A DNA stretch of 23,771 bases, from positions 1 to 23,771 of IMG/VR virus record IMGVR_UViG_3300015265_000018; one strand, given 5' to 3'. This document shows, one piece after another, positions 1 through 12,450 of this stretch. The number at the start of each line of letters is the position of its first letter. Position 1 is the first letter of the stretch. The position numbers were made by a program, and so were the translations under genes. The notes below the pieces were generated by a model. It was not told the DNA's origin, ran no database searches, and was given only the letters and a program-made list of their open reading frames with translations. The stretch is from a virus.

Positions 1-168
1 ATCGTCGATGAACCAGACCTTGCCCCGTTGATCGACCTCCATGCTGGCGTAACGATCGGCGACCTGGTTGAAGAAGAATCGCCGGCCATGGGTGCCGATG
101 ATCCGGATCGCTTGGTTGACGTGAACGACGCGCTGGCGCTTCAGAGCGAGTTTGTTTTCTGTGGGCAT
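1..168 (-). CDS. Hypothetical phage protein, 3' part cut by window edge
   Basis: The minus strand opens with ATG at 166-168 and stays open for 56 codons to the window edge, so the C-terminus is missing. The visible N-terminus begins MPTENKLALKRQRVV and is basic, then continues GTHGRRFFFNQVADRYASME. I do not recognise a named domain. It has the look of the small conserved proteins found near the integrase end of Pseudomonas prophages, but that placement is inference because no integrase is in view. It points left, like the early operon further right, but is separated from it by the rightward gene at 317-1225. Confidence 0.55.
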   Translation of the reverse strand, partial: MPTENKLALKRQRVVHVNQAIRIIGTHGRRFFFNQVADRYASMEVDQRGKVWFIDD

Positions 169-248
169 GGGGCGTCCTATGCCGGGGCATGCCCGGGCGG
201 TGAGATATAGAGTGGAAAGCCAATATTTAAATGGAGTTTTTGGCGGGG

Positions 249-316: not shown

Positions 317-1225
317 ATGGGATTGTTTACTGATATCAAGGATGCTTCTGCCGTTTTAGCGCAGATATTAGGCATAGCAGGATTAGTGTGGATGCTGTTG
401 TTTTCGTGTTACGAAAAAAATAGAGCGTCAATAGTTAAGCTAATTGGAAGCGCTTTGGTTCTTGCATTGGCGTTCGCTGCCAACAATGCGGTTACATATG
501 GTCTGGCAATATTTATTGTAGCTACTCTTGTAACAGATCTTGATTTTCTGGAAAAGCTTGCGGCTCTTTTTTGGAATCGAGATAAGTACTGGGAGTATCA
601 GTTAAAAAAACAAAGCCCTGACGAAGAAACTGCTAAAGCCGCGAAAGAGGCTGATGAAATTATATCGGCAAATATGGCTAGTGCTGAGCAGGCTTCGCCA
701 GATACTGGCGCTACAGAAGCGAACAATCCGATAATCTCGCTGGCTACAGCAGCGCCTGCCCCCCGAAACTCTGAAGCCAAGCCTAGAAGTTCAGCAACCA
801 AAAGTAATCCGTATCTTCGAAAAGCGATAAAGTCGATGCAAATGACAAATCGCATATTAGGTTTTGAATCGCAGGTGGCGCGAGCAATTACTTCAAAAGA
901 TGGGCCATTAGAAGGTGGTGTTGCTTCAACAGGATTTGTTCTGAAAGGGCGAGACAGAGATTTTCATATAGATCTTATCGTGAAAATTCCCGGGGTTCAT
1001 TACGTTGCGGAAATAAAATATGCTACTGCTCCTCAAATTATCAAGTCAGCTGAGATGAGAGTTCGAGAGGTAGCTAAAGTGTACGAGTCTTATTTGAAGG
1101 AAAAGGGGTTGCTTGATGTGGTTGTCATTCCCTTGCTGATAGTTTCTCATCTCGCTGATTGCTCGAGGATCAGTTCAGGATTATCAGTGTTGAAATTTGA
1201 TGAGGGATTGAATGCCTTCGTCTAG
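317..1225 (+). CDS. Membrane protein with C-terminal PD-(D/E)XK-like nuclease domain
   Basis: The 302-residue protein has three hydrophobic segments at roughly residues 13-32, 38-56 and 57-75. A charged, Ala/Ser/Pro-rich linker follows (about 90-165), then a globular C-terminal domain (about 170-302). That domain contains E184 in a helix, D219 in a beta-strand-like stretch (FHIDLIV) and E232-x-K234 in VAEIKYA. This D-x12-E-x-K spacing is typical of PD-(D/E)XK nucleases of the Mrr/restriction-endonuclease type. Function is inferred from motifs only. The gene is visibly more AT-rich than the early operon and points against it. It converges on the cytosine methyltransferase gene with 16 bp between them. 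The ribosome-binding site before the ATG is weak. Confidence 0.7.
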   Translation: MGLFTDIKDASAVLAQILGIAGLVWMLLFSCYEKNRASIVKLIGSALVLALAFAANNAVTYGLAIFIVATLVTDLDFLEKLAALFWNRDKYWEYQLKKQSPDEETAKAAKEADEIISANMASAEQASPDTGATEANNPIISLATAAPAPRNSEAKPRSSATKSNPYLRKAIKSMQMTNRILGFESQVARAITSKDGPLEGGVASTGFVLKGRDRDFHIDLIVKIPGVHYVAEIKYATAPQIIKSAEMRVREVAKVYESYLKEKGLLDVVVIPLLIVSHLADCSRISSGLSVLKFDEGLNAFV

Positions 1226-1241
1226 TGGCATAGCCGGGTAA

Positions 1242-2165
1242 TTACGCGGCGGCCTTGAGCGCCTCAATTATTCTTTGTCCGGCCAGCGGCGGTACCGCAT
1301 TGCCTGCCATGTGCATGGTGAGCCGGTGATTGTCCGGGCGCTTTGTGTCAGCCGGGAAAGACATGGCAGCAAGGGCCTCGTTCGCCGAGAGCATCCGCAT
1401 CTCATCTCCGCGCACCAGAGCCCATCGGTCAAGCGTGGTGATGGTCCCGATCGGGCGCTCCAAGCTTCGGCCTGTCAGCCCAGAGCCGGATCCGTAATAG
1501 GGCATTATGAATCGATCACCGAAGCGTTCTCGACCATTCTTAACGCGGAGCAGCGTCGACTCAGCGCGCCCAGGCTTTACGACATTGCTCCATTTGCCGG
1601 CATCGAAGTCGATGAAGGAGGAGGCCGGAACGTGGCGGCGTTGGTGCAGCTGCAGAATGAGAGGCGCCTTGCTTCGGGTGCACACCAGAAAGAGGCGCAC
1701 CCGGTGTTGAGGCACGCCGAGATCGGCGCAATCAACGACGTGCGGAGCGATCATGTAGCCGAGCGCAGCCATTGCCTGTGACCATGCCGGGTACAAAGCC
1801 CAGGCCGTGAACTCTTCAACATTCTCGACCAGCACGACTTCAGGCCGGTGGAATTCGGCAGCCGACACAACTGCCCAAGCTGTTGACCTCGATGCATCGT
1901 GCTGCGCGTTGCCAGACTGCTTGCCTCGGGCTTTCGAATGTCCTTGGCAGCAGGGGGAGGCCAGCATGATGTCGTGCGCTGGGACCTTCGACCAATCCGC
2001 CTGGTGCAAATCTTGGCAGATGTGAATCGCGTCCGGGTGGTTGGCGCTGTGCCACTCGACCGCGACCGGCCAGTGATTGGCCGCCCAGATAACTTCGATG
2101 CCTGCGTTGCGGGCGCCGGTAGACCATCCGCCGAGACCGGAGAACAAATCGATTGCAGTGGGCAT
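1242..2165 (-). CDS. DNA (cytosine-5-)-methyltransferase
   Basis: The 307-residue protein carries the ordered motifs of C5-cytosine methyltransferases. Motif I is DLFSGLGG at residues 6-13 (SAM binding). The motif IV loop is SPCCQGHS, with the catalytic Cys probably at 73. Motif VI is ENVEEF (115-120), motif VIII is QHRVRLF (153-159) and motif X is GNAVPP near the C-terminus. The second proline of the usual PPCQ is a cysteine here. The start at 2165 is chosen because a strong GGGAGGT lies 7-8 bases upstream; a longer in-frame start lacks this. The variable region is short, consistent with a single recognition specificity. Phage versions usually protect phage DNA from host restriction or work with a cognate nuclease. 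Its neighbour at 317-1225 is a possible partner (inference). Confidence 0.9.
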   Translation of the reverse strand: MPTAIDLFSGLGGWSTGARNAGIEVIWAANHWPVAVEWHSANHPDAIHICQDLHQADWSKVPAHDIMLASPCCQGHSKARGKQSGNAQHDASRSTAWAVVSAAEFHRPEVVLVENVEEFTAWALYPAWSQAMAALGYMIAPHVVDCADLGVPQHRVRLFLVCTRSKAPLILQLHQRRHVPASSFIDFDAGKWSNVVKPGRAESTLLRVKNGRERFGDRFIMPYYGSGSGLTGRSLERPIGTITTLDRWALVRGDEMRMLSANEALAAMSFPADTKRPDNHRLTMHMAGNAVPPLAGQRIIEALKAAA

Positions 2166-2215
2166 GGGGATACCTCCCGGATATAGTTGAGAATTAACAG
2201 TTGGAGGACGCATGC

Positions 2216-3028
2216 ATGGACATACTTTTGGCTTCTGGAGGGTCAGCAGCTCTGGTTTCTTTAGTGCTTTGGCTTGCGAGAAATCTGATAATTACAAGAT
2301 TGACGAAATCAGTTGAAAGCGAATATGCCCATTTGCTTGAAAGTTATAAGTTTGATTTGCGAAGATCAGAAGAGTCTTTCAAGGCCGAGCTGCGAAGTAA
2401 TGAGGTGGAAATTACTGCGTTACGAAGCGGAACTCTTTCGGCTATATCAAGTAGACAGTTGTTGCTGGACAAAAAAAGAATGGAAGCCTGTGACGAGTTA
2501 TGGGCTTCAGTAGTTTCCCTTGGTGCATTTAAGATTGTATCTGTTTGGATGTCGGTTATAAAATTCGAAGTAGTGGCCGAAGCGGCTAAGCATGATCCAA
2601 ATGTTCGTAGACTTGTTGAGATTTTAGATAAACAGATAGATCCAGAGTTTTTGAAAGCTCAGATTGTTCCGTCAAGGTCACGTCCGTTCGTTACACCGAT
2701 GTTGTGGGCATCTTATTCTGCCTATGCGACCGTAATGATGCAGGCTGTCATGCGCGCATTTTCTATAAAACATGGACTTGGGGCTGATCTTCTTGACTTT
2801 AAGAAAACCTCAGAAGTTTTAAAGCTTGTGCTTCCGCATCAAACAGAGTATATCGATAAATTTGGCGCTTCGTGTTATCACTTTCTGATAGAGGAGCTTG
2901 AAGAAAAAATAATAAGTGAGATTCATCACACTATTTCGGGTGCTTCGACGGACGACGCGGGTATCCAGCAGGCTGCTGCCGTCATCAAAAAGTGTAACGA
3001 AATTACCGTTCCCATCGATAAGTCTTAA
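2216..3028 (+). CDS. Membrane-anchored coiled-coil protein of unknown function
   Basis: The 270-residue protein begins with a hydrophobic segment (about residues 5-22, GGSAALVSLVLWLARNLII). A charged heptad-like region follows (about 28-75), then a largely helical cytoplasmic region. I recognise no enzymatic motif. The ATG at 2216 is preferred because GGAGG lies 8 bases upstream (2203-2207); an in-frame TTG at 2201 has none. The start is 50 bp from the divergent methyltransferase start, so both genes probably share a control region. The gene is AT-rich with codon use unlike the recT block, suggesting separate acquisition. It lies 93 bp before the DUF2971 gene on the same strand, and the two may form a small operon. 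Confidence 0.75.
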   Translation: MDILLASGGSAALVSLVLWLARNLIITRLTKSVESEYAHLLESYKFDLRRSEESFKAELRSNEVEITALRSGTLSAISSRQLLLDKKRMEACDELWASVVSLGAFKIVSVWMSVIKFEVVAEAAKHDPNVRRLVEILDKQIDPEFLKAQIVPSRSRPFVTPMLWASYSAYATVMMQAVMRAFSIKHGLGADLLDFKKTSEVLKLVLPHQTEYIDKFGASCYHFLIEELEEKIISEIHHTISGASTDDAGIQQAAAVIKKCNEITVPIDKS

Positions 3029-3121
3029 GAAGATTTTCTTTGTCTTCTCGCCGGCTGGCGTGATTCGTTGAAGTGGGACATTTGTGTTCGGCCCGGCATG
3101 GCGCTGGCTAAGGGAGTGTTT

Positions 3122-4006
3122 ATGGGGCTTTACAAATATGTGACTGTAGGCACAGCGAAAAGGATATTGAAAGGGAGCATCAAATTCACCCAGCCTAGTG
3201 CCTTTAACGATCCGTTTGAGCTGTTGCCACAGTTCTTTGTCGCTGCAGATACAGTCGAGCACACAAGAAACCTGTCCTTTTGTGTTTTGAGCCCTCGAAG
3301 AGCAGGTCTAGATCGTGGACATATACCGGGTGATGAAAAGAACAGGAGCGATTTTCAGGCAAGAAACATCGTCTCAACGTTGAATAAGACTGTAGGCATT
3401 TTGTGTCTTAGTCGTAATGCTGAAAGCCTCCTGATGTGGGCTCACTACGCAGGGGAATACTCAGGTGCGCTGATTGAATTTGATGAAAGCCACGAATTTT
3501 TTAACGGTTTGAATCCTGTTAAATATCAGAAGCGTAGGCCTGTTTTCAATCTTTCAGATTTTTATGATCGCGTCGTACCTATTTCTGATCTATGCGTAAA
3601 ATCCAATGTCTGGGCTTACGAGAAAGAAGTTCGACTCGTACGAGCGACAAAAGATTTACATCTCGCCGAGGAAGGTGATGGCAAACATCCGGTATTGACA
3701 ATGGGGCTGCCATTGGAATGCATTAAGTCTGTATATATCGGCGAAAGAATGAAGGTCGAAGATCAAAAGGAGATTTGGAAGCTAGTCAAAGATACGAATA
3801 TATCGTTGAGCCTGGCCGCAGTCGCAAATTGGGATTATTCATTTCGGTATGACCAAATAAAATTTTCTGGATCTCTCCTCAGCTCCCCTATGATCACTCC
3901 CCGAACAGCACATATTTTTAAGGATGAGCCCGGTGAGTTTGGTGAAGTGGCCAGGTGGCTAATCGAGAATCATGAAATGTCTATATTTGTGAACAAGACA
4001 TGCTGA
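3122..4006 (+). CDS. DUF2971 family protein
   Basis: The 294-residue protein shows the series of short motifs I associate with DUF2971: LYKYVTVG at the N-terminus, FNDPFEL, a central SLLMWAHYAGEYSGALIEFD and a later WAYEKEVRLV. The biochemical role of the family is not established to my knowledge. Members are common in accessory regions and prophages. The start at 3122 follows AAGGGAG at 3110-3116; an upstream in-frame ATG at 3068 would add a leader with no family match. The gene is AT-rich, points rightward, and ends 5 bp before the stop of the convergent gene at 4012. A terminator-like hairpin at 4031-4071 lies just beyond it. Confidence 0.85.
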   Translation: MGLYKYVTVGTAKRILKGSIKFTQPSAFNDPFELLPQFFVAADTVEHTRNLSFCVLSPRRAGLDRGHIPGDEKNRSDFQARNIVSTLNKTVGILCLSRNAESLLMWAHYAGEYSGALIEFDESHEFFNGLNPVKYQKRRPVFNLSDFYDRVVPISDLCVKSNVWAYEKEVRLVRATKDLHLAEEGDGKHPVLTMGLPLECIKSVYIGERMKVEDQKEIWKLVKDTNISLSLAAVANWDYSFRYDQIKFSGSLLSSPMITPRTAHIFKDEPGEFGEVARWLIENHEMSIFVNKTC

Positions 4007-4011
4007 ACCAT

Positions 4012-4323
4012 TCAACCACTCTCTGAGCCAGTCGCGGCAAACGCTTCAAGCTGCCGCGACCACTTTTCTTTAACGACAATTTCCGGTCGCGACATGCTGG
4101 AGAAGTGGGACGACTCTTCCGGCGGCGCGGCCGCCAGGTTGATCAAGAACGTCGACACCGTCTCCTGCCATTCCTCGAAGTCGTGGCGCTGGCCCAGCAC
4201 ATCAAGTGCATCAGCGAGCGCTTTCGACACAATCAGCGTGCGCTTCTCGGCGCCGATCCGGTCGAGCAGAGCTTTCTCCTTGGCGCGTTTGTCCTTCTGC
4301 AGTTGCGCGTTGCTCTTGGCCAT
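4012..4323 (-). CDS. Conserved small phage protein, basic N-terminus
   Basis: The 103-residue protein begins MAKSNAQLQKDKRAKEKALL, a style I associate with small Pseudomonas phage early proteins that may bind DNA. The middle (RTLIVSKALADALDVLG) could form a strand-helix-helix of the ribbon-helix-helix type, but no motif proves it. The start at 4323 has a GAGG about 9 bases upstream; a longer in-frame start at 4338 would add five residues. It is the last gene of the leftward early operon before the rightward cargo genes. Its 3' end contains the hairpin that may terminate transcription from the DUF2971 gene. Confidence 0.65.
   Translation of the reverse strand: MAKSNAQLQKDKRAKEKALLDRIGAEKRTLIVSKALADALDVLGQRHDFEEWQETVSTFLINLAAAPPEESSHFSSMSRPEIVVKEKWSRQLEAFAATGSESG
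4031..4071 (+). terminator. Terminator-like hairpin for the rightward cargo genes
   Basis: GTCGCGGCA at 4031-4039 and TGCCGCGAC at 4052-4060 form a perfect 9-bp stem with a 12-base loop, followed on the plus strand by CACTTTTCTTT. The position 25 bp beyond the DUF2971 stop fits an intrinsic terminator. The whole element lies inside the 3' coding end of the opposing gene at 4012-4323. Confidence 0.5.
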
Positions 4324-4404: not shown

Positions 4405-4866
4405 TCATGCTGCGACCTTCACCTGATGCCAGACACCGGTGACGTAGAACACCTTCGCGGCCTGCATCTCGTCAAGCGAAACCTCCGCGGGAACGGCGAT
4501 CCAGCCAGAGGCGACCAAGTGGTTCGCGTTGCAGCTGTTTCGCAGCTCGAGGTAGTAATGCTCAATGGCATCCGTCAGGCGCTCGACCTTGTAGATGCCC
4601 TCGGGCGATATCTCCACCGACTTGACGTACTCGACACCGCGCTCGTCCCGACACATGGCGCTGAGGTAGATCGTCCAGTGGTAGGCGAAGTCGAACAGGG
4701 CATTGGCGATGGCCAGGCTCCGGATCTGCCGGCAGTTTTTCCAGTTCGCCATGATCTGGGCGCCGCTCGGATCGATGTTCACGACCGCAACGTGATTGGT
4801 GCTGAGTAGCGCCCGGCAACTACGTTCGACGCGGGCGAAGCCATTGTTTGCCTTGCGCTTGCTCAT
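4405..4866 (-). CDS. Conserved phage protein of unknown function
   Basis: The 153-residue protein starts MSKRKANNGFARVERSCRAL and contains NHVAVVNIDPSGAQIMANWK and HLVASGWIAVPAEVSLDE. The style matches conserved hypothetical proteins in the recT neighbourhood of Pseudomonas siphoviruses. That recognition is from memory and was not checked. No catalytic motif or membrane segment is visible. Its ATG overlaps the stop of the upstream 4863-5105 gene in an ATGA junction, so the two are probably translationally coupled. Downstream, about 80 bp separate it from the 4012-4323 gene. Confidence 0.75.
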   Translation of the reverse strand: MSKRKANNGFARVERSCRALLSTNHVAVVNIDPSGAQIMANWKNCRQIRSLAIANALFDFAYHWTIYLSAMCRDERGVEYVKSVEISPEGIYKVERLTDAIEHYYLELRNSCNANHLVASGWIAVPAEVSLDEMQAAKVFYVTGVWHQVKVAA

Positions 4867-5107: not shown

Positions 5108-5770
5108 TCAAGCTCCTAAACGATGGGCCTGCGCCCTGGCCTTGTCTGCGACCTCATCAACCATGCGGTTCAGTTCCAGGTTGAACTGAACCAGCTCTTT
5201 GTGAAGGTTGGCGATGTAGTCTTCGTCGCGGTGAATCGTCTCGATGTAGAGCTGACACTCTTCATCTTGGCGAGAATCGAACGACAGAAAGTCCCACCAT
5301 TTCCGCCCCGTAACGAACATGCAGCCCTGAACCTGCGGCATGTGTTCCTCAGGCATGCCTTCGAGCCACGTCCTGACGTGTATCGCCTCGTTGAAAGGAC
5401 ACTTGGACTCGGTGCCTCCGTCGTCGTTGATCAAGCCGTCCGGCGAGCAACCGAGCCAGTCATACTTCGGGTGGACGATGAACTCTGACGGTATGACGAT
5501 GTTGCCAGTCAGCATCTCGTAGGCGTTTTGAGCCTTCTGTTCTTCGGTGTGACCCCACTTCAGAGAGGCGCTGCTTACGTTGTGCTTGGACTTCTTTGCC
5601 AGTCGCTCGAAGCACAGTTCGCGCATGTATGAGGTGCGCGCCCCCATAGGCTCGCGCTTCCCATTTTTGTCAGGCTTCCCCCAGGCGATCACATCTTTAA
5701 ACCGGCTGGCTGTCACTCGGCCAGATCGGTCTGTATGCCATTTCTCAGTGCCCTGAAGTTCCGTTCTCAC
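5108..5770 (-). CDS. YqaJ-type phage recombination exonuclease
   Basis: The 220-residue protein fits the YqaJ/lambda-exonuclease branch of PD-(D/E)XK nucleases. Residue groups in order are the N-terminal GRVTASRFKDVI, E76-E77 in KWGHTEE, D111 in LGCSPDGLI, E121-x-K123 in GTESKCP, and a Gln-containing helix (MPQVQGCMFVTG, 144-155). Such enzymes degrade one strand of a double-stranded end so that a RecT-type annealing protein can load. The gene starts with GTG and overlaps the recT stop by one base, the usual SSAP-exonuclease pairing. It acts in the cytoplasm during early replication and recombination. Confidence 0.92.
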   Translation of the reverse strand: MRTELQGTEKWHTDRSGRVTASRFKDVIAWGKPDKNGKREPMGARTSYMRELCFERLAKKSKHNVSSASLKWGHTEEQKAQNAYEMLTGNIVIPSEFIVHPKYDWLGCSPDGLINDDGGTESKCPFNEAIHVRTWLEGMPEEHMPQVQGCMFVTGRKWWDFLSFDSRQDEECQLYIETIHRDEDYIANLHKELVQFNLELNRMVDEVADKARAQAHRLGA

Positions 5771-6759
5771 TACGCCGCTTCCCCGACCTGAGACAGGCCG
5801 TCGTTAGTGCCAGTCATATCGGTAAAGTCGCCATCAACGGTAGCTGCCATGTTCTTGAGCGCTTCGTGGCATTCAAGGCCGATTGCTGCACGTTGCTTCG
5901 GCTTGAGACCTGCCCACGCTGTTGCATAGGCTTCAATGTCCTGCTGCTTCGCGACGACCAAAAGGTCTGCGAATACTCCGTCGATTTCCGGCGAGGGGGA
6001 TTTCGGGCCGAACGACACACCAGCAGCGGCAGCGGTATTTGAAGCCTGCTTCGCGGGAGTGATATCAATTTCGCCGCCGTATGAGTCTTCGAATTCATCG
6101 GGTGTGTAGACACCAAGAATGACGTCAGGGCAGAACAGCCGCGCCCATTTCTTAGTCACCAAATAGGCAATCTGCTGCTTGGGATCTTCCGCCCAAAGCG
6201 TAGAGTTTCGGGTGCGGACCTGGGTGAGCAGAAGATCCAGAACGCGTGGCTCATCTTCGCCTTTGAAGGTTGCCCAAACCTTGATCCCGAGACCTTTTTC
6301 GTCGTCAAAGCTCCAGGCCGGAACGCGATACTTCTTGAACTCGCCGGTGTCCTCGTCTTTCTTGGTCTTGCTGGTGACTTCTCGCATCTTGCCGATGACG
6401 TTTTCCCAGGCGCCGAACCACTCGAAGTTCAAGCGACCCTTGACTGGCGCCTTGGCTGTGATCACTGCGTTGACGAGCTGTGCCTCATAGCTCAATGCGC
6501 CGCCGTTCACGATGAATGTTTTCTGCGCAACGGCGAATGGGTTCATCTGCCACTGCATCGCTTGCAGCACTACCGCCATGCAGTCAGCTTGATTACCTTT
6601 CAGATGCTTGGGGACAGTTGTCACGCCCTTCGACATCATCAGTGCGAGGTCGCTCATCGACTTCATAGTGCTCGGGTCGAGAATGAGCGCAGCTGCGTTG
6701 TGCGATGGATCGTGGTACGTGGCAAGGCCAGTTGAGGCTTGGGTGTCTGAGTCAATCAT
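5770..6759 (-). CDS. recT: RecT-family single-strand annealing protein
   Basis: The 329-residue protein matches the RecT family through LKGNQADCMAVVLQAMQWQM, the following NPFAVAQKTFIVNGGALSYE, the AQLVNAVI helix and the later QIAYLVTKKWARLFCPDVIL. RecT proteins bind single-stranded DNA and anneal complementary strands, with the adjacent exonuclease supplying 3' overhangs. The ATG at 6759 is selected because GGAG precedes it by 6-7 bases; a TTG at 6780 lacks a site. The C-terminal third (about 235-329) is more divergent and probably mediates partner contacts. A 7-bp hairpin lies 13 to 35 bases upstream of the start. Confidence 0.95.
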   Translation of the reverse strand: MIDSDTQASTGLATYHDPSHNAAALILDPSTMKSMSDLALMMSKGVTTVPKHLKGNQADCMAVVLQAMQWQMNPFAVAQKTFIVNGGALSYEAQLVNAVITAKAPVKGRLNFEWFGAWENVIGKMREVTSKTKKDEDTGEFKKYRVPAWSFDDEKGLGIKVWATFKGEDEPRVLDLLLTQVRTRNSTLWAEDPKQQIAYLVTKKWARLFCPDVILGVYTPDEFEDSYGGEIDITPAKQASNTAAAAGVSFGPKSPSPEIDGVFADLLVVAKQQDIEAYATAWAGLKPKQRAAIGLECHEALKNMAATVDGDFTDMTGTNDGLSQVGEAA

Positions 6760-6771
6760 TGCGCTCTCCGT

Positions 6772-6794
6772 GGCCGACAAGGAGTAGGTCGGCC
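6772..6794. repeat. Hairpin between coiled-coil gene and recT
   Basis: GGCCGAC at 6772-6778 and GTCGGCC at 6788-6794 form a perfect 7-bp stem with a 9-base loop, lying in the 53-bp gap ahead of recT. No T-tract follows on either strand. It may be a processing or mRNA-stability structure that adjusts recT/exo expression relative to upstream genes. Confidence 0.45.
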
Positions 6795-11181: not shown

Positions 11182-11616
11182 TTAAATGATCTGGTACCCT
11201 TCAGGCGCAGCAGAAATTTGAATCCCACTGCATTCGAGATCCTCACCGTCAGCAAGAACGGTAATCTTAATTTTACCTGGCTCCTGAATGTGAAAAGGAG
11301 AAAGCACGAACATGGCCTGGGCAAAAAGTCCTTTAGCTTCGTCGACTTGAGCCGCCGATTGGTGCATTTGATTCAACTGCTCTTCTTCCAGGTTGGCATC
11401 AAAAAGAACAGTTTCTCCAAAGCAGCCCTTGAATTGTAGAGATTTGAATGGTTTATCGCGTGGCGTACTGGCTGTTACGGAAACGCACAGCTTTGGTAGC
11501 ACCGCTGGGAAGGACGGCACGTACATGAGGGTTCCAATAATCCCAATGAACGAGCATTTGTTGTTTACTTCGTACCGAATGTCGTCACAGAAAATTGAGT
11601 AGGCAAAACGATTCAT
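11182..11616 (-). CDS. DUF6941 family protein
   Basis: The 144-residue protein has the pattern I associate with DUF6941: AYSIFCDDIRYEVNNKCSFI followed by GIIG, then FPAVLPKLCVSV. It appears to be a single beta-rich domain without membrane segments or catalytic motifs. The ATG overlaps the antitoxin stop in an ATGA junction, so it is translated with the toxin-antitoxin pair from the lysogenic transcript. An intrinsic terminator follows about 35 bp downstream. The role is unknown. Its lysogenic expression suggests a function in the lysogen rather than in lytic growth. Confidence 0.75.
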   Translation of the reverse strand: MNRFAYSIFCDDIRYEVNNKCSFIGIIGTLMYVPSFPAVLPKLCVSVTASTPRDKPFKSLQFKGCFGETVLFDANLEEEQLNQMHQSAAQVDEAKGLFAQAMFVLSPFHIQEPGKIKITVLADGEDLECSGIQISAAPEGYQII

Positions 11617-12062
11617 TTTTTAGCCTTCGCTTGGAAAATTTGTTCTTGCCGATCAAGCATTTCGTCGAGCTCGCCCGAAGAAACTCCGAGAACCTCACGG
11701 AGGCGTTTGCATGTTGATCGCTGAAGGTCGACGTTGCCTTTCTCAATCCGCGCTACCTGAGCCTGCGTGGTTTCTAGCAACTCTGCGAGCTGTGTTTGAC
11801 TGAGGTTTTTTTTCAGACGTAAAGTTCTGACGGTTTCGCCTTCGTCAGCGAGAACATCGTCTACCAGCCATGCTCTTGCGCTCGCGATGCCGTCCTTATG
11901 CTCGGTACTCGTCTCAAGACGCGCCATCAGGCGAGAAAAGGCAGTGTTTTTTTTCGCAAGCGGAGCTGGCAGGATAGATGTTTCGAATTTCAGGACAACC
12001 CCTACACTAGCGGTGCCCGCCGTTTGCTCACCAGCCGTCCGCCTCAAGCTTCTGATAGGCAT
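11613..12062 (-). CDS. XRE-family antitoxin
   Basis: The C-terminal half has a clear helix-turn-helix of XRE type: VRTLRLKKNLSQTQLAELLE, then TTQAQVARIEKGNVDLQ. It sits directly downstream of a RelE/HigB-like gene, so it is the likely antitoxin and autorepressor. The start is uncertain. An ATG at 11927 gives 104 residues but lacks a ribosome-binding site. The frame is protein-like further upstream (VVLKFETSILPAPLAKKNTA), so I place the start at the ATG at 12062, overlapping the toxin 3' end by 35 bp. Two A8 runs in the coding strand, each encoding Lys-Lys-Asn, are potential slippage sites. The stop overlaps the DUF6941 start. Confidence 0.75.
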   Translation of the reverse strand: MPIRSLRRTAGEQTAGTASVGVVLKFETSILPAPLAKKNTAFSRLMARLETSTEHKDGIASARAWLVDDVLADEGETVRTLRLKKNLSQTQLAELLETTQAQVARIEKGNVDLQRSTCKRLREVLGVSSGELDEMLDRQEQIFQAKAKK

Positions 12063-12450
12063 CAAGGACGCGCTGTGTGACAGGGTGTTTTGGATCATAA
12101 TCGAATGCTCTCTCAACGACAGCCAATACAAAATAAAGGTCTTTTGAGGCGATGTAGGCGTAGATAATTCGGTATTCAAACCCGTCACGAGATAGCTCGA
12201 AATCTCTTAGCCTCCAGATGTTTTTCCCTCGCCTATAAAGAGAATAAATTTTTGAGACGCTGAAGGTTGCGCCCACCTCTGGTAGATGCGGTTTGCCACC
12301 GTATTGATCCCATGAGAGCTTCTCGAGCAACTCCTGACTGCCCTCAAGCTCCTGTAGGAGCACAGCCAGGCGGTATGCCGCTGTTGGATTTATCGCGAGG
12401 ATCTTTTCAAGATCATCGGATGCATCATCACCTACTATTAGCTCGTACAA
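12028..12450 (-). CDS. RelE/HigB-like toxin
   Basis: The 140-residue protein has the core of RelE/ParE-superfamily toxins: WRLRDFELSRDGFEYRIIYA followed by YIASKDLYFVLAVVERAFDY, and a C-terminal helix. Such toxins usually cleave mRNA at the ribosome. The start is probably TTG at 12450, with a GAGAAG upstream. The N-terminal extension (about 1-70) is longer than a minimal RelE protein. An AATATA/TATATT dyad overlaps the start and may be the autoregulatory operator. The pair lies downstream of cI on the same strand, so lysogens probably express it. Stabilisation of the prophage or phage exclusion are the usual guesses. Confidence 0.78.
   Translation of the reverse strand: MYELIVGDDASDDLEKILAINPTAAYRLAVLLQELEGSQELLEKLSWDQYGGKPHLPEVGATFSVSKIYSLYRRGKNIWRLRDFELSRDGFEYRIIYAYIASKDLYFVLAVVERAFDYDPKHPVTQRVLDAYQKLEADGW

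Follow-up and report, generated by a model that had tools for sequence, protein, structure and literature searches.

The virus record IMGVR_UViG_3300015265_000018 (23.8 kb; the whole stretch analysed, hereafter referred to as the window) carries three rightward genes, A, C and D, at the distal end of a leftward early operon, interleaved with a DNA methyltransferase gene, M. Here we report a comparison of this block with related prophages, together with four ordered leader elements, m1–m4, that this comparison brought to light. The genes and features concerned are the following.

1–168, minus strand: operon gene led by m2, phrog_23101-like; only its start lies in the window, and the gene runs off the end
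170–202, minus strand: leader element m2, exact consensus, directly 5′ of the start of the 1–168 gene; conserved joint of slot 2
317–1225, plus strand: gene A, cargo that converges with M; membrane segments at the N terminus and a PD-(D/E)XK-like domain at the C terminus
1242–2165, minus strand: gene M, C5 DNA methyltransferase of the orphan type, part of the leftward operon
2216–3028, plus strand: gene C, N-terminal membrane helix followed by a helical or coiled-coil region; cargo
3047–3078, minus strand: leader element m1, one mismatch to the consensus, located between genes C and D; the conserved joint for slot 1
3122–4006, plus strand: gene D, cargo that converges with E; DUF2971/PADLOC PDC-S31, with a predicted ADP-ribosyltransferase-like fold
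4012–4323, minus strand: gene E, phrog_5439; conserved flank, at whose stop codon the similarity between phages ends
4031–4060, strand not applicable: GC hairpin in the 3′-terminal part of E; may be a terminator of D, kept in only some relatives
4408–4866, minus strand: gene F, phrog_5434; conserved operon gene that served as second anchor
5108–6780, minus strand: YqaJ-type exonuclease and RecT annealing protein; proposed exchange machinery

An initial reading of the sequence alone had described three AT-rich genes that run against a leftward operon and are interrupted by a methyltransferase, and the open reading frames (ORFs), strands and base composition all agree with it. The GC content is about 43–44% in A, C and D versus 61% in M and 60% in E, and M sits between A and C. 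A is convergent with M, and D with E, because these genes run end to end, and C and M form a divergent pair. The start of M was set at 2165, although its ORF stays open to 2213, and an upstream TTG at 3068 is a possible alternative start of D. The terminator-like hairpin that had been placed behind the rightward pair holds up in part: a GC stem of 9–10 bp followed by a T-rich stretch is present at about 4031–4060 (dG −18.5, z −3.0), but it lies inside the coding sequence of E, was not called by a consensus scan and is intact in some relatives only. A conserved terminator after D was ruled out, the stem being broken in many relatives.

Cargo content across related prophages

Related prophage ends were fetched through the flanking genes E and F, giving 139 distinct segments with the window counted in; ORFs were called mechanically, families were built by single linkage, and the loci are non-independent samples. 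DNA identity between loci is about 0.65–0.74 as far as the E stop codon and drops to 0.35–0.37, the level of unrelated sequence, right beyond it. Past this sharp edge lie 221 opposite-strand AT-rich ORFs, which belong to 112 families and are distributed over 111 of the 139 loci. In the 100 two-sided loci, 143 such ORFs are found downstream of the anchor (78 loci) versus 7 upstream (7 loci), an excess beyond chance. The closest relative of the window (L032, with a RecT 97% and a YqaJ 96% identical) has M and C as in the window, carries a different family at the position of D and is without A, and D adjoins E in four loci (L004, L005, L007 and L008) whose other neighbours differ. On the operon strand, DNA methylases such as M belong to the genes exchanged at the slots; the sequence-only reading had overlooked this, as well as the leader elements described below.

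The sequence-only reading had proposed a swappable accessory locus, to be recognized by variable content beside a conserved flanking gene, and such variation is clearly present in the 139 loci. The opposing possibility, that the same four genes recur in fixed order as core early genes, was not borne out: each of the genes A, C and D is present in only a few of these loci, and their combinations differ. With conserved phage genes around variable content, the locus has the form of a hotspot, and the comparison strongly supports the view that the block is a cargo locus with exchanged content. The genomes that carry related prophages point to Pseudomonas as the host genus. Relatives of gene E number at least 136 among viral contigs versus 1 in 50,697 phage records, and therefore this phage group has hardly been isolated.

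Leader elements m1–m4

When the relatives were compared, short conserved segments flanked by unrelated sequence came to light, which resolve into four elements of about 32 bp. On the operon strand they read as follows.

m1: CCCCACTTCAACGAATCACGCCAGCCGGCGAG
m2: CACCGCCCGGGCATGCCCCGGCATAGGACGCCC
m3: CCCCCTTCAAAGTCAGCCGCTATAGCGGCAAGGA
m4: CCACCTTCTGCCGCCACGCGCGGCATGGAGC

In each, a GC-rich palindrome or hairpin precedes a Shine–Dalgarno-like stretch. About 309 sites are spread over 132 of the 139 loci, none of them in the opposite orientation, and an operon start codon follows, in most cases, 0–26 bp from the end of the element. Outside the exact 12-base seed, identity is 0.81–0.90 within the elements versus 0.26–0.31 in their flanks. 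The sites are confined to one side of the anchor, with 197 of them within 5 kb downstream and 0 within 5 kb upstream in 117 loci. Every element leads 8–15 different gene families, and the order m1, m2, m3, m4 is followed without exception in the 268 ordered pairs formed by two different elements; the succession thus stays fixed although the genes to the left and right vary, so that the similarity is limited to the element itself. Furthermore, among 299 Pseudomonas isolate genomes the exact m1 core occurs in 19 and the m3 core in 52, whereas the reversed-pattern control gave no match; where the m1 and m3 cores lie close together on one contig of these genomes, they are 1.2–4.8 kb apart.

In the window, m1 separates two cargo genes, C and D. 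A second leader, on the cargo strand (TATTTGTGTTCGGCCCGGCATGG...GGAG before ATG), is common to many cargo genes of different families, for example on the cargo side of m1 within 3079–3121 of the window; m1 therefore appears as a divergent joint. One locus (L107) contains three copies of m1, every one of which precedes a cargo gene or fragment, a possible trace of repeated insertion at the same joint. Readings of m1 as a sigma-54 or sigma-70 promoter, judged by eye, were unsupported.

Predicted functions of the cargo genes

Membrane helices, predicted by a simple hydropathy scan, occur in 54 of 98 cargo families versus 3 of 99 operon-strand families (p 1e-17). Among the profile matches of the cargo representatives are putAbiC, AbiP, HNH and restriction-type nucleases, PIN, PD-T7-4, PDC-S12, PDC-S31, PDC-S33, SIR2, a TIR effector, RT-associated SLATT, SLATT_5, RelA_SpoT, 8xMP, DUF4145 and DUF4238. 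An anti-phage role has indirect support in these families, in the PDC-S31 match of D and in the surroundings of homologues, and many cargo genes are probably anti-phage weapons.

Gene D had been called a DUF2971 protein, and it matches Pfam DUF2971 (27.8 bits against a cut-off of 22, E 7e-6) and, far more strongly, the PADLOC models of PDC-S31 (best E 3e-38), which place it in that family. Its AlphaFold model, built on 20 homologues, has a predicted local distance difference test (pLDDT) score of 81 and a predicted template modelling (pTM) score of 0.83. The top 16 rows of the VIA comparison are all proteins with the ADP-ribosyltransferase (ART) fold, drawn from several families (Tpt1 with Z 7.2, DarT with Z 5.6–6.6, and Rhs toxins), and the rows past these contain other ART toxins mixed with unrelated folds. 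Of 25 divergent DUF2971 proteins, 23 retain E167, E169 and R171, and W106, Y109 and G115 are present wherever the sequence extends over them. The conserved ExE motif (E167 and E169) precedes a predicted strand, as in ARTs, and these two glutamates may be the catalytic residues. D is thus likely to be an ART-like enzyme. Three results weigh against this assignment, in that the best VIA Z, 7.2, is under 8, Foldseek alone gave no significant match, and a profile comparison of DarT with D returned an hhalign probability of 0.1, with a shallow DarT profile. D could instead be another small enzyme or a binding protein with a fold that merely resembles that of ARTs, a reading to which we assign an appreciable minority weight in view of the uniform top rows and the placement of the conserved ExE motif. 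A search of a viral fold library with D found nothing significant.

D is akin to DarT and Tpt1 in its predicted fold and its ExE-type motif, but it differs from DarT in having neither sequence nor profile similarity to it and no adjacent DarG-like antitoxin gene, none having been seen in the loci read. Membership of the DarT family was rejected, because the profile comparison gives no match. Homologues of D in Marinomonas, Halomonas and Shewanella (L170, L171 and L172) are followed by a VCR-like attC site, with folding z values of −2.4 to −3.6 versus near 0 for the control L168, and an integron-type integrase, recognized by reading its sequence, lies beside the homologue in L170 and L171. The D gene can thus travel alone, since homologues sit as integron cassettes. 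A distant DUF2971 gene is also found in Salmonella phage SSU5 (L209), with the partition gene region on one side and the replicative helicase on the other. The literature searched, which covered few subscription papers, contained no paper linking DUF2971 and phage and none on PDC-S31, which is itself a candidate only, with no mechanism found there.

Profile searches with A and C returned no convincing match to any described family, and sequence searches with A, C and D against solved structures gave nothing meaningful. The earlier description of A as a membrane protein with a PD-(D/E)XK-like domain is supported by its membrane segments, a fold match and D...ExK residues. The C-terminal domain, predicted with a pLDDT of about 80–90, matches Can2/Card1 in Foldseek with a probability of 1.0 and, in VIA, XisH-family proteins, EndoMS/NucS, Card1, Can2 and others with Z 8–9.8. 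Five homologues, 24–40% identical to A, share invariant D219, E232 and K234, consistent with a D...(D/E)xK active site. In the predicted structure A has the PD-(D/E)XK core fold, and we regard it as a PD-(D/E)XK-like domain protein and putative nuclease. It resembles Can2/Card1 and other PD-(D/E)XK nucleases in its nuclease-like domain and D...ExK residues, whereas N-terminal membrane helices take the place of a CARF or other ligand-binding domain. In L185, L186 and L242, homologues of A are convergent with a repressor-like gene, two of them end to end. The spot convergent with the phage repressor is a usual place for genes expressed in lysogeny.

C homologues adjoin a recombinase gene, and end against it, in three Pseudomonas genomes (L188, L189 and L190). 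Another (L207) belongs to a gamma-mobile-trio island on a Photobacterium plasmid and is followed downstream by a recombinase gene, and one is located beside an HNH gene on a Thauera plasmid. The recombinase-flanked homologues possibly mark a second insertion site. Elsewhere in the window, another AT-richer patch on the minus strand (11613–12450) contains a short RelE/HigB-like ORF (12028–12450), followed by an XRE-like helix-turn-helix ORF (11613–12188); the pair, named by reading alone, looks like a toxin–antitoxin module.

Proposed mechanism and relation to known systems

We consider it probable that the block belongs to an accessory rack with several slots in the distal early operon of a large group of temperate Pseudomonas phages, in which the cargo defends the lysogen and is exchanged at the joints by RecT-type recombination. 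At the level of sequence comparison, the loci establish the slots, the exchange of their content, the fixed order and orientation of m1–m4 and the membrane-rich, toxin-like character of the cargo. The operon genes of this region, often DNA methylases, each start with one of m1–m4, and the cargo occupies the opposite strand from the stop codon of one operon gene to the leader of the next. In the mechanism that we propose, the RecT/YqaJ pair would swap modules with co-infecting phages or resident prophages, with m1–m4 and the flanking core genes supplying the homology; Rad52-like phage recombinases of the RecT type act on short or diverged homology (PMC3945230). Cargo expressed in the lysogen would then protect it against other phages as small stand-alone effectors. 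As judged from their predicted domains, D would act as an ADP-ribosyltransferase that uses NAD and, upon infection, modifies a target of the phage or the host. A would be a membrane-anchored nuclease that attacks DNA entering at the envelope, and C would serve as a helical sensor or effector anchored in the membrane. Only tentatively do we suggest the fullest version of this mechanism, in which m1–m4 are position-specific joints where the RecT-type recombinase of the phage itself exchanges single genes among four fixed addresses, leaving order and translation signals intact. The slots would then contain anti-phage effectors not described before, among them DUF2971, as a new class of defence by stand-alone ADP-ribosyltransferases, and A, as a membrane-tethered nuclease.

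Several observations weigh against the accessory-rack mechanism. Some loci are without detectable RecT/YqaJ homologues of this type, and a consensus scan for a sigma-70 promoter of the cargo gave weak matches only, none of them convincing. Moreover, the operon-strand control also matches PADLOC, mainly through DNA methylases, and the defence enrichment of the cargo is therefore suggestive but unproven. As for the elements, m1–m4 might be kept only for the translation or regulation of the operon genes, with swapping mediated by core genes or illegitimate recombination. This explanation is a serious contender, to which we give somewhat less than an even chance: it would account for the location of every site just before an operon start codon, for the single orientation, and for the Shine–Dalgarno-like stretches and hairpins, and it has a parallel in the start-associated sequences (SAS) of Cluster K mycobacteriophages (PMC3203893), but each element leads many different gene families and keeps its order through changes of both neighbours, which counts against it.

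A real rack could also carry mainly general lysogenic-conversion genes for host fitness, bacterial competition or addiction in place of anti-phage genes. Most cargo families have no annotation, a fact that also counts against a defensive cargo, and membrane proteins fill many roles; we nevertheless judge this alternative unlikely, as the recognizable cargo is mostly of abortive-infection, nuclease, SLATT, SIR2, TIR and PDC types, and cargo homologues occur in other mobile cargo contexts. Far less credible is the idea that A and M form a restriction–modification pair with C and D as unrelated passengers. The PD-(D/E)XK-like domain of A, whose gene ends beside a C5 methylase, would suit such a pair, and in one genome (G060) a C5 methylase is again the neighbour of an A homologue, at a prophage end that also holds a DUF2971 gene. 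However, M-type methylases occur in 82 locus proteins and A in one further viral locus, the two genes lie on opposite strands and differ greatly in composition, and this disparity makes the pairing unlikely; A also carries membrane helices, and its homologues in L185 and L186 adjoin a repressor instead.

Under the accessory-rack mechanism, a defensive cargo would make the rack a source of many candidate systems, in about 100 families of which more than half have a predicted membrane helix, and its position can be found from short DNA patterns alone. If m1–m4 are joints, single-gene swapping without breakage of an operon, a long-standing question about temperate phages, could be tested by simple crosses. 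Furthermore, the predicted ART fold would give DUF2971, a widespread family on which almost no literature was found, a testable mechanism.

The combination seen here is absent from the literature searched, where most subscription papers were out of reach; for a described Pseudomonas prophage hotspot of this kind, the search returned other hotspots only, and a P. syringae prophage paper mentions none. The ordered elements m1–m4 that mark the slots are new here. The nearest known arrangements are the variable antiviral hotspots of P2-like prophages and P4-like satellites in E. coli (Rousset et al. 2022, PMC9122126), and the SAS/ESAS of Cluster K mycobacteriophages, short conserved elements before start codons, some with inverted repeats and nearly all in one orientation (PMC3203893). 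The P2 and P4 hotspots likewise combine a fixed position in the phage genome with highly variable, often defence-type content. The present locus, for which a defence role is predicted, belongs to another phage group and host and has several successive slots, with cargo opposite to the operon strand and four ordered leaders as markers. m1–m4 resemble the SAS/ESAS in being sited just before phage start codons. The SAS, however, is one 13-bp sequence, present in 11–19 copies, that stays with given gene families (PMC3203893), whereas m1–m4 are four sequences, usually with one copy each, that stand in a fixed order before changing gene families.

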